A DNA stretch of 64,000 nucleotides from the NCBI RefSeq assembly GCF_021129305.1, contig NZ_JAJOMB010000030.1, forward strand, positions 1-64,000, read 5' to 3'. Below are positions 2,921 to 15,600 of the stretch, one piece after another (position 1 is the first letter of the stretch; each line of letters starts with the position of its first letter). Source of the stretch: Kineosporia babensis (GTDB lineage: Bacteria; Actinomycetota; Actinomycetes; Actinomycetales; Kineosporiaceae). Made by a program: the position numbers and the translations under genes. Below the pieces are notes generated by a model. The model saw only the letters and a list, made by a program, of their open reading frames with translations, was not told where the DNA came from and ran no database searches.

Positions 2921-3328
2921 ATGGCCATCAGCCTGAAGAACCCCGCCGGTCTGCCCGAGGTGCCGCTGTACAAGTACGTTTCGGTGGCCAGTGGTTCGAA
3001 AATGGTCCACATGGCGGGTCAGGTCCCGATCGACGAGAACGGCGAGACGGTCGGCAAGGGCGACTACGTGGCCCAGATCGAGCAGGCCTACCTGAACGTG
3101 GCCAAGGTGCTGGCCGCCGCCGGCGCCACCTTCGACGACGTCGTGAAGATCAACGTTTACGCGGTGAACATGACGCCCGACGTGATCGCGGCCTCCGGCG
3201 AGGGCATCGCGCGGGCCGAGCAGAAACTCGGCGTGAAGATCCAGGCGCCACTCACCGGGATCGGCGTAGCCGCGCTCGCCTCACCCGAGTACCTGGTCGA
3301 GGTCGACGCCGTGGCCGTCCTGGACTGA
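2921..3328 (+). CDS. RidA-family protein
   Basis: 135 aa, normal length for the YjgF/YER057c/UK114 (RidA) family. These trimeric proteins hydrolyse reactive enamine/imine intermediates released by PLP enzymes, or act in degradative pathways. Family signatures: HMAGQVPIDENGE near residue 30, QIEQAYLNVAKVLAAAGATFDDVVKINVY in the middle, and a C-terminal LVEVDAVAVLD. The canonical catalytic Arg of RidA proper (in the C-R-A-x-V-x-V-x-x-L segment) is not present: the C-terminal motif is PEYLVEVDAVAV. This points to a RidA-like subgroup rather than true RidA. Regulated with the divergent TetR gene. Confidence 0.85.
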   Translation: MAISLKNPAGLPEVPLYKYVSVASGSKMVHMAGQVPIDENGETVGKGDYVAQIEQAYLNVAKVLAAAGATFDDVVKINVYAVNMTPDVIAASGEGIARAEQKLGVKIQAPLTGIGVAALASPEYLVEVDAVAVLD

Positions 3329-14502: not shown

Positions 14503-14526
14503 GTCATCGACGGCCGTGAGGTAGGT

Positions 14527-14558
14527 GGTCGCCCGGGGATACCCTTCCCCGGGCGACC
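14527..14558. terminator. Strong stem-loop between convergent units
   Basis: A 13-bp perfect stem (left arm GGTCGCCCGGGGA at 14527-14539, right arm at 14546-14558) with loop TACCCT and no U-tract, as is usual for actinobacterial terminators. It can serve the dehydrogenase gene on the plus strand and the structured RNA on the minus strand. Confidence 0.75.
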
Positions 14559-14584
14559 GGAGATGGACCCGTTGCGGGCCCGTG

Positions 14585-14740
14585 CACCAGATCCGCCCGA
14601 CCGTCTTGAACGGCGCCGGTCACGCTGATTACCTGCGCGCTCTGCCGCTGAGCTAAAGGCCCATGATGGAGGGCCTTACGGGATTTGAACCCGTGGCCTC
14701 GCAGACCTTGCCGACGCCCGGTTGATCGGACCGCTGGTGT
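14585..14740 (-). ncRNA. YrlA-like Y RNA candidate with circularly permuted tRNA domain
   Basis: Read on the minus strand, the RNA starts with CACCAG (14734-14739). It carries GGTCCGA at 14726-14732, the conserved 5'-strand motif of Ro60-binding Y RNAs, then AAC and an 8-bp strand (14711-14718). The permuted tRNA domain follows (14631-14709), then the pairing strands (14612-14619 and GTT 14609-14611) and a CTGGTG (14585-14590) complementary to CACCAG. TGACC at 14618-14622 is the expected 3' partner of the Y-RNA motif in an alternative register: CGGTC at 14729-14733 can pair with GACCG at 14617-14621. Known bacterial YrlA RNAs have this plan, a Ro-binding stem topped by a tRNA mimic. No Ro60 (TROVE) gene is in the window, so the Y-RNA name is inference; the structure itself is directly visible. 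Exact ends are estimates. Confidence 0.65.
14631..14709 (-). other. Circularly permuted tRNA fold
   Basis: In transcript order: anticodon-stem 3' strand CTGCG (14700-14704), variable loop AGGCC, T-arm (stems 14690-14694/14678-14682, loop TTCAAAT), acceptor 3' strand AAGGCCC (14671-14677), TCCA (14667-14670), linker TCAT (14663-14666). Then acceptor 5' strand GGGCCTT (14656-14662), T8-A9, D-arm (GCTC, loop AGCGGCA, GAGC), G26, and anticodon-stem 5' strand CGCAG (14633-14637). All 7 acceptor pairs and all 5 anticodon-stem pairs are Watson-Crick. G18-G19, T54-T55-C56, A58, G53-C61 and G15/C48 are all kept. No intact anticodon loop is encoded: the loop would have to be formed by joining the two outer ends (AAGGT and GTAAT side), so no amino-acid identity can be given. 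Confidence 0.88.
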
Positions 14741-14746
14741 TTCACC

Positions 14747-14820
14747 CTGAGATTTGAGCGATAGTCTGACGATTGAGTGGTGGCTGCTGCCGAGCAGCCC
14801 ACCGTCAGGCTGATTCTCAG
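14747..14820 (-). other. Three-tier nested hairpin upstream of the tRNA-like RNA
   Basis: On the minus strand, CTGAGA (14815-14820) pairs with TCTCAG (14747-14752). Inside it CTGACG pairs with CGTCAG, and inside that GGTGG plus CTGCT pairs with AGCAG plus CCACC around a CGGC loop. Three perfectly matched stems, separated by asymmetric internal loops, indicate a real RNA structure. It could be a second Y-like RNA, a 5' part of the same transcript, or a 3'-UTR element of the upstream gene. A local GGTG-AAA-CACC hairpin lies just after it. Confidence 0.55.
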
Positions 14821-14862: not shown

Positions 14863-15600
14863 TTACCGCTCGCCGAACAGGTAGGCGAAGAACGGGGCGC
14901 CGATCGCGGTGTCGGTGATCTCGATCGAGTTCGCCTCTTCCCGGGCCTGCTTCACCGCCTCGGTGAGCTTCTGCACACGGGCCAGCAGTTCGCCGACCCG
15001 GTCGGCCGGCAGCGCACCGGAGTACTTGACCGTGGTCCAGGTGCCCTCCGGAACGTCCTCGGTGTACACGTCGACCTGGGCCGGGTGGTGCTCGGTGGCC
15101 TCGGCCTTGACCCAGTTGCGCATCACCTTCTTGGAACGCACGGTCTGCGCCGGGGCCGAGGCGTAGGCGCCGACGTCCGGGCTGTAGGACCAGCGTTCGG
15201 CCGGGTCGAGCACCGGCAGCTTCGTGATGAAGGTCTGCAGCTCGCCCAGCTTGCGCTCGAGGAACAGCAGGGTGGTCACGGTGACCCCGGGCAGGATGGT
15301 CCGGCCGTCGACCACCACGTCGGCCTTCGCCTCGCAGTTGGCGGCGTCCTTGGTCGCGGTCACGTCGAACAGCCGGGTCAGCTGGCCGGTCACCCGGTCG
15401 ATCACCTCGGTGGCCCGGATCTGCGGCAGCTTGGTCTCGGCGGGCAGTTGCAGGCCGTCCTCGTCGCGCGGGGTGTAGCTGCGCGAGATGCCGGACAGCG
15501 GGTCGCTCTTCTGCACGTCCCGGTGCGCCGTGACGAAAGCCTGCTCGGCCGTGGCCTTGACGCCCTTCTCGATGGCGATGATCTGGTTCAGCTTGGTCAT
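14863..15600 (-). CDS. Uncharacterised conserved actinobacterial/actinophage protein
   Basis: 245 aa. From memory this belongs to an uncharacterised family found in actinomycetes and their phages (I think catalogued as DUF7873). Recognisable stretches are the start MTKLNQIIAIEKGVK, then LTRLFDVTATKDAANCEAKA, TLLFLERKLGELQTFITKLP, and a C-terminal GTWTTVKYSGALPADRVGEL. It is soluble, lysine-rich, without signal peptide, membrane helix or known catalytic motif. It lies directly upstream of the permuted tRNA-like RNA on the same strand with 120 bp between, so a link to that RNA (processing, binding or shared expression) is a reasonable hypothesis, not a demonstrated one. Confidence 0.72.
   Translation of the reverse strand: MTKLNQIIAIEKGVKATAEQAFVTAHRDVQKSDPLSGISRSYTPRDEDGLQLPAETKLPQIRATEVIDRVTGQLTRLFDVTATKDAANCEAKADVVVDGRTILPGVTVTTLLFLERKLGELQTFITKLPVLDPAERWSYSPDVGAYASAPAQTVRSKKVMRNWVKAEATEHHPAQVDVYTEDVPEGTWTTVKYSGALPADRVGELLARVQKLTEAVKQAREEANSIEITDTAIGAPFFAYLFGER

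Follow-up and report, generated by a model that had tools for sequence, protein, structure and literature searches.

The question raised by this locus was which kind of RNA carries the circularly permuted transfer RNA (tRNA) fold found on the minus strand of a 64,000-nucleotide stretch of Kineosporia babensis DNA (contig NZ_JAJOMB010000030.1, positions 1 to 64,000; the window, below). A preliminary description had placed this fold at 14585-14740 and had proposed that it was a YrlA-type Y RNA. YrlA RNAs are described as encoded near Ro60. The permuted fold was real, but comparison with related sequences did not support its identification as YrlA. The element almost certainly belongs to an unnamed RNA family tied to the protein family DUF7873 (Pfam PF25283), the gene of which was found about 0.1 kb upstream of the RNA.

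The minus strand from 14704 to 14633 reads, in order, as the 5' strand of an anticodon-like stem, a T-arm, the 3' strand of an acceptor stem, a loop, the acceptor 5' strand, a D-arm and the 3' strand of the anticodon-like stem. As had been described, the acceptor and anticodon-like pairs were complete and the GG of the D-arm was kept; all pairs of the module were standard (5 anticodon-like, 5 T, 7 acceptor and 4 D). A purpose-written scanner for permuted modules, which demands a TTCRANY T-loop and a D-arm with GG, gave a single match in the whole 64-kb window. A covariance model (R1) built from 47 modules of the Ro60 side, all having TAGCTCA in the D-arm and a loop no longer than 10 nt (other modules and the window were excluded), scored the window at 60.9 bits (E 3.4e-18, the search E-values being rough according to the tool itself), and the next match in the host genome, at 46.7 bits, overlapped tRNAs. 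The R1 alignment had 94.9% of its cells paired, and 14/21 pairs varied on both sides. This single match and the R1 score confirmed the earlier judgement that the fold is beyond chance. ARAGORN detected no tRNA within the window, nothing there exceeded an Rfam threshold, and neither the Rfam model nor the ARAGORN search for transfer-messenger RNA (tmRNA) gave a tmRNA match.

The RNA was longer than first noted. It was rightly taken to be structured, but its paired and motif-bearing sequence extended from about 14820 to about 14580. The continuation of the anticodon-like stem into an 8-bp helix was also borne out. The features are given in the direction of the RNA, with helices named Pa to Pe; R2 is a second covariance model, introduced below.

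14863-15600, minus strand: DUF7873 gene, 245 aa (Pfam PF25283, E 2.4e-101), co-directional with the RNA and immediately upstream of it
14815-14820, minus strand: Pa 5' strand CUGAGA, partner 14747-14752 (UCUCAG)
14803-14808, minus strand: Pb 5' strand CUGACG, predicted partner 14766-14771 (CGUCAG)
14779-14803, minus strand: plain hairpin at the site of the first module of homologues; its first base is the last base of the Pb 5' strand
14747-14771, minus strand: middle segment CGUCAGACUAUCGCUCAAAUCUCAG (Pb 3' strand, a CUCGCUC-type motif, Pa 3' strand), aligning with the CUCAGACUCUCGCUCCAG-type segments of homologues
14580-14746, minus strand: 3' half of the DUF7873-linked RNA, an end-to-end R2 match
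14726-14739, minus strand: 5' strands of the outer helices Pe and Pd, CACCAG then CGGUCCGA, containing GGUCCGA; partner 14585-14600 (the R2 alignment uses a slightly shifted pairing register for this part)
14720-14727, minus strand: motif GAUCAACC, family form GAUCNNCCG
14711-14718, minus strand: Pc 5' strand, 8-bp helix with 14612-14619 (one G.U), helix 3 in the covariation alignment
14700-14704, minus strand: anticodon-like stem 5' strand CUGCG (CTGCG in DNA), 5/5 pairs with 14633-14637
14678-14694, minus strand: T-arm, 5/5 pairs, loop TTCAAAT
14671-14677, minus strand: acceptor 3' strand AAGGCCC (permuted-module scanner)
14663-14670, minus strand: acceptor loop UCCAUCAU (DNA TCCATCAT), beginning N-CCA (permuted-module scanner)
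14656-14662, minus strand: acceptor 5' strand GGGCCUU (GGGCCTT in DNA), 7/7 pairs
14639-14653, minus strand: D-arm, 4/4 pairs, GG kept
14633-14637, minus strand: anticodon-like stem 3' strand CGCAG, pairing with CUGCG
14612-14619, minus strand: Pc 3' strand, 8-bp helix with 14711-14718
14603-14611, minus strand: GUUCAAGAC, the equivalent of the CUUAAACG motif of homologues (R2 alignment)
14585-14600, minus strand: 3' strands of the outer helices Pd and Pe, pairing with 14726-14739
14527-14559, minus strand: terminator-like G+C-rich hairpin 3' of the RNA (14520-14570 folds at -32.8 kcal/mol)

Relatives of DUF7873 were collected by scanning genomes, one for each species, a search that picks up close relatives of the query. 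The 64 loci obtained came from many actinomycetes, from the myxobacteria Myxococcus and Nannocystis, and from metagenome-assembled genomes labelled Armatimonadota, Planctomycetaceae, Sericytochromatia and others; relatives were also present on 19 IMG/VR contigs and in 73 phage records. At least one module was found within 700 nt downstream of DUF7873 and on the same strand in 59/64 genome loci (one or two modules), in 19/19 IMG/VR contigs and in 9/10 named records, which comprised nine phages and a plasmid. Among the genome loci without a match, L261 and L266 had a module with a variant T-loop that was visible by eye, L267 had 129 nt of contig left, and in L276 and L278 the DUF7873 match ended early; the named record without one was the Microcoleus phage L309. 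The module match of L307 was at +604 and may be unrelated to the system. In the same loci, outside the stretches downstream of DUF7873, the background of the scanner was 5 non-tRNA matches per 1.6 Mb strand-bases.

The homologues shared a common plan, as judged by eye. On the 5' side, Pa and Pb are arranged around a first module, the D-arm of which is often TAGCCCAA...AGAGGC and the acceptor loop often ACC, and are followed by the CUCAGACUCUCGCUCCAG-type middle motif. The 3' side comprises Pe, Pd, GAUCNNCCG, Pc and an anticodon-like stem with the second module; CUUAAACG lies between Pc and Pd on the returning strand, and a hairpin follows. In 34/86 DUF7873-linked RNAs a GATCNNCCG-like motif was present upstream of the last module. 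The window retained Pa (CUGAGA/UCUCAG), Pb (CUGACG/CGUCAG), Pc (GGCGUCGG/CCGGCGCC) and the outer helix, with the first permuted module replaced by a plain hairpin and the second preserved in full on Pc, Pd and Pe; the first module is optional in the family, and loci L222 and L223 likewise had a plain hairpin at its site (by eye).

The model R2 was built from 21 rows of this family, excluding the window, and has 170 positions. In these rows, 42 pairs in 7 helices had 96.0% of their cells paired, and the covariation looked for in homologues was present, with 35 pairs varying on both sides. No shuffled control reached the observed pairing (0/500), and sliding the partner by 1-3 columns lowered the pairing to 38-46%. 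R2 matched the window over all of its positions (1-170/170; 14746-14580) with 71.1 bits and E 1.3e-19. This was the sole full-length match in the host genome at E <= 0.01, the Ro60-linked RNA of that genome being matched over positions 50-108 only. For 67 other DUF7873 loci, 59 were matched over positions 1-170 and L290 over 15-151; L307-L311 gave partial matches, and L276 and L278 none. The lowest full-length scores were those of Nannocystis (45.8-50.5 bits). In the training rows of both R1 and R2 the T and D arms were nearly invariant or covarying, and the modules had a 7-bp acceptor stem; selection has therefore acted on the tRNA-like shape, with the anticodon end given over to covarying helices.

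Co-occurrence of the gene and the RNA was quantified in 394 actinomycete genomes. PF25283 was present in 37 of them, near complete in 36 and in two fragments in one. R2 at E <= 1e-13 matched 36/394 genomes, which by hand comparison were the same 36 that harboured a near-complete DUF7873, and in all 36 the RNA lay no more than about 425 nt from the gene, with the contig and the strand in common. In the genome with the fragmented gene (G247:C27:2942-3232) no R2 match was obtained at E <= 1e-13, which may reflect a joint loss of gene and RNA. TROVE, the mark of Ro60, was detected in 25/36 genomes with DUF7873 and its RNA (54/394 overall); the other 11/36 had no TROVE match, and the DUF7873 system is therefore independent of Ro60. 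A functional tie between DUF7873 and Ro60 based on their co-occurrence was considered and rejected: in the largest genus group, g59 (39 genomes), both were present in 12, with 10.8 expected (hand count), and the excess looks like a reflection of lineage.

In the phages Arthrobacter Mimi, Gordonia Phendrix, Rhodococcus NiceHouse, Rhizobium TM21B and Vibrio K479, the DUF7873 gene was located amid annotated tRNA genes, and in most of them it was followed by a gap without annotation. The Arthrobacter phages Atuin (L335) and Mimi (L336) had a common tRNA island, with blastn matches in the same order. The island of Atuin carried Ro60 followed by at least 2 permuted modules, and that of Mimi carried DUF7873 and its RNA. 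Among the matches listed, Atuin was outside the three Arthrobacter phages with DUF7873, Ro60 matched no other Arthrobacter phage, and no accession was common to DUF7873 (best 60 of 73) and Ro60 (best 40 of 52); six Vibrio records with Ro60 were outside the matches listed. The difference between Atuin and Mimi fits similar work by the two systems, as an anecdote from a single pair.

The reference for the Ro60 side consisted of 60 stretches around TROVE genes, together with stretches from relatives. The scanner found a permuted module in 41/60 of the TROVE stretches. ARAGORN tRNA calls overlapped 15/70 collected module rows, and the program may therefore confuse permuted modules with tRNAs. The Rfam YrlA model (RF02553), the kind of model that had been proposed as a check, scored the window at lax settings at 28.4 bits (E 6.7e-4), far below its gathering cut-off of 69. 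Five relatives had Ro60-linked RNAs that likewise failed to reach this cut-off (34-46 bits). Over 58 genomes (that of the window and its relatives), RF02553 gave matches in 57 at E <= 1 and none above the cut-off. Among 32 such loci inspected, 25 coincided with tRNA genes, in most cases tandem pairs, and seven were free of ARAGORN tRNAs (L002, which is the window, and L004, L005, L006, L008, L009 and L010). TROVE was found in 5/58 genomes, those of L004, L005, L006, L009 and L010, and gave no match in that of L008. The Rfam score was rejected as proof of YrlA, as tandem tRNA pairs of relatives reached about 28-35 bits with the same model, which is therefore not discriminating. RF02553 thus both missed Ro60-linked members and mis-hit tandem tRNA genes.

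That the RNA is an unlinked YrlA-type Y RNA serving a Ro60 encoded elsewhere in the genome is improbable. The permuted tRNA core is common to the window and the Ro60-linked RNAs, as the R1 score indicates, the host genome does encode Ro60, RF02553 gives its low-scoring match, and blastn found relatives on Rhizobium plasmids, of which the one examined was YrlA-like (61.7 bits) and lay between a Ro60-like gene and RtcB. Other results speak against it. The 71.1 bits that R2 gave end to end on the window compare with a best end-to-end score of 30.1 bits among 65 mostly Ro60-side sources, in which the matches were in or around the tRNA core (up to 50.2 bits) and only four ran end to end (30.1, 22.2, 9.7 and 8.5 bits). 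In its outer helix and motifs the window RNA differed from the Ro60-linked RNAs of actinomycetes, as judged by eye from the flanks and by the contrast between the models, and its outer helices fitted the DUF7873-linked RNA. The motif GGTCCGA, which had been taken for the Ro60-binding motif, was upstream of 0/67 Ro60-linked and 0/86 DUF7873-linked modules; it was rejected as a Ro60 motif and looks coincidental. No Ro60 adjoins the RNA, as had been noted: the one TROVE match of the host genome is on contig C25 and the window on contig C24. Directly upstream of this Ro60 is a YrlA-like RNA (L006/L163, G000:C25:83325-83400) with a long near-perfect outer helix, and the window RNA is therefore something else or a second copy. 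Queries with Ro60 gave no match in 93 DUF7873 loci (flanks of up to 5 kb), DUF7873 gave none in 66 Ro60-side loci, and the family-bearing genomes that have no TROVE match point the same way.

Three further explanations account for parts of the pattern. The alternative offered in the preliminary description, a permuted tRNA gene whose transcript becomes a functional tRNA by way of a circle, would explain the intact acceptor, T and D arms in permuted order and the TCCA in the acceptor loop. It is very improbable, since the anticodon-like stem is not closed by a 7-nt loop but extended by Pc, Pd and Pe, helices that covary in homologues, and ARAGORN reads no tRNA. Remains of two identical tRNA genes in tandem are harder still to credit. 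Such pairs do imitate the pattern, and one of them in another genome (L174, tRNA-Asn) scored 67.1 bits with R1, but the outer helices Pc, Pd and Pe are absent from tRNAs and are conserved and covarying, and bacteria of several phyla, as well as phages, show the same arrangement 3' of DUF7873. A cis-acting structure in the 3' untranslated region (UTR), controlling only the stability or autoregulation of the DUF7873 mRNA, would fit the position downstream of the gene, in the same direction, and the terminator-like hairpin that comes next in many loci. It is unlikely, as stability would hardly seem to require two elaborate modules of tRNA shape that persist across phyla.

Several other observations were made during these comparisons. 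Two blastn matches to the window were discarded: that in Nonomuraea was a pair of ordinary tRNAs (Cys, Val), and that in an Aeromonas phage was a tRNA-Met plus a tRNA-like stretch uncalled by ARAGORN. The plasmid locus of Rhizobium sp. CIAT894 (L065) carried two adjacent YrlA-like RNAs (2962-3221; 61.7 and 94.9 bits) between the Ro60-like gene and RtcB, with RtcR divergent, and the first acceptor loop began with TCCA. A permuted tRNA RNA at L173 (G025:C18:431658-431731, minus strand) scored 68.1 bits with R1 without ARAGORN overlap; its genome had no TROVE match and R2 matched its core only, which makes it an orphan outside both systems. Terminator-like hairpins were seen by eye at the equivalent place in several homologues. 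In several loci (L222, L237, L303 and L306) the hairpin loop was GGAUAY-like, the hairpin of the window (14527-14559) having GGGUAU, and the GGAUAY-loop hairpin may be more than a plain terminator.

An AlphaFold2 model of DUF7873 (29 sequences) had a mean predicted local distance difference test (pLDDT) score of 90.2 and a predicted template modelling (pTM) score of 0.73. Foldseek with this model gave no match in BFVD at E <= 0.001. The BFVD entry A0A7M1RW91 (uncultured phage cr118_1; probability 1.00, E 0.037, TM 0.45/0.59) is a possible remote relative, as a lead from predicted structures. Against the PDB, phmmer gave 0 matches at E <= 1, and the DUF7873 profile gave 3 weak ones (best E 0.31). 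PHROGs gave 0 matches for the window protein and 1 for 38 family members (E 0.0018), NCBIfam had no match for DUF7873, and PADLOC matched 0/3 proteins.

The reading favoured overall is that the RNA is probably the RNA half of a predicted DUF7873 ribonucleoprotein that uses tRNA mimicry; the ribonucleoprotein mechanism itself is held with somewhat better than even confidence. The RNA would be made on its own or as a processed 3' UTR of DUF7873. Its modules would fold into tRNA-shaped knobs for tRNA-handling factors (modifying enzymes, RNase P, and 3'-end and CCA enzymes), and DUF7873 would bind the RNA, probably at the internal loop formed by GAUCNNCCG and CUUAAACG. The tRNA-shaped handles would then face the tRNA-handling proteins, and the other end would be held by DUF7873 as a dedicated protein. 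Cutting in the acceptor loop might yield an RNA in several pieces with CCA ends, like two-piece tmRNA; this is the least certain step and is proposed tentatively. N-CCA opened the acceptor loop in 26/71 and 15/51 distinct modules of the two classes, compared with 7/65 Ro60-linked modules, in counts for which single modules were classed as first or second by a rough rule and related sequences are non-independent. Its presence in some loops suggests that 3' ends are made there in at least some members. By analogy with Ro60/YrlA and from the phage tRNA islands, the most likely function would lie in quality control of tRNA or RNA or in translation under attack. It is conceivable, if rather doubtful, that phages and several bacterial phyla have an unnamed ribonucleoprotein made of DUF7873 and an RNA whose permuted tRNA domains, at most two, are cut by tRNA-processing enzymes into CCA-ended and possibly charged pieces. 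Such a complex might be a second, Ro60-independent invention of a particle of protein and tRNA mimic, or might work like tmRNA but with two acceptor arms.

A number of results weigh against a DUF7873 ribonucleoprotein of this kind. DUF7873 has no recognised RNA-binding domain, its calculated pI is 5.55 and Foldseek of its model against the PDB gave no match at E <= 0.001, so the reading rests on genetic linkage. The shared structure was drawn by eye from one alignment row, and many rows are close relatives. Pc was the weakest helix (84.4% of cells paired), with a middle pair that failed in 11/21 rows, and Pa was also weak (mean longest helix 5.71, compared with 5.25 with swapped partners, sd 0.11); the pairing of Pa and Pb in distant phages is uncertain. 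The window RNA lacks the first module, deviates from the UUAAA that is invariant in all 21 alignment rows (A2), and has 4/42 non-standard pairs in the R2 alignment. N-CCA was absent from most distinct acceptor loops (45/71 and 36/51). The R2 matches in the Rhizobium, Vibrio and Pseudanabaena phages were confined to the tRNA core or its surroundings, no annotated tRNA was present in Pseudanabaena PA-SR01 or in the Microcoleus phage stretch, and the Microcoleus phage had no module within 700 nt of DUF7873. DUF7873 was not found in 12 other genomes of the host's family, in which the RNA was sought with blastn but not with R2 and gave no matches beyond short or tRNA-like ones; the window copy is therefore without a close orthologue.

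The pair of DUF7873 and its RNA was not named in Rfam, PDB, NCBIfam, PADLOC or the open literature, a search that left subscription papers and most preprints outside. The open literature contained no mention of 'DUF7873', queries on permuted tRNA in phages, noncoding RNA or bacteria gave nothing related, and none of the matches listed under PF25283, WP_006376607 or the phage names was on the subject. A protein family of unknown function gains an RNA neighbour, which accompanied DUF7873 in 36/36 actinomycete genomes where the gene was near complete. The comparisons also define a new RNA family that shows covariation and can be searched for with R2, and they show that Ro60 systems have no monopoly on permuted tRNA folds. 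The adjacency of gene and RNA, together with the differing contents of the tRNA island in Mimi and Atuin, makes the role of a tRNA-mimic RNA testable by removal of the gene.

The system most similar to the DUF7873-linked RNA is YrlA (RF02553) with Ro60, in which a permuted tRNA fold is also carried on a longer helix, with a partner gene nearby, in bacteria and phages. The differences are that the neighbour here is DUF7873, with no Ro60 match in 93/93 loci, that the outer helices and motifs are others, that two modules are often present, and that the window is far below the Rfam cut-off. In two-piece tmRNA the tRNA-like part is permuted, with the acceptor 3' strand ahead of the 5' strand. The DUF7873-linked RNA has the same strand order, and N-CCA in some of its loops, but it has a full D-stem and often two modules, and the window gave no tmRNA match.

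Ro60, Y RNAs and RtcB are treated in PMC7790460, and TROVE proteins are present in some jumbo phages according to an excerpt of PMC7824862. Circularly permuted tRNA genes, as outlined in part of PMC3978253, have their halves in swapped order; the window RNA resembles them in the order of the halves and differs from what is described there in having no anticodon loop, in being part of a larger covarying RNA and in its DUF7873 neighbour. No match to GOLLD or ROOL was obtained in the window, nor in six DUF7873 loci at E <= 0.5. GOLLD and ROOL are, in extracts of PMC12286853, large RNAs of phages and prophages that are of unknown function and often lie near tRNA islands. The DUF7873-linked RNA is likewise of unknown function and, in several phages, found by tRNA islands, but unlike GOLLD and ROOL as portrayed in those extracts, it folds tRNA-like modules itself and has a fixed protein-gene neighbour.
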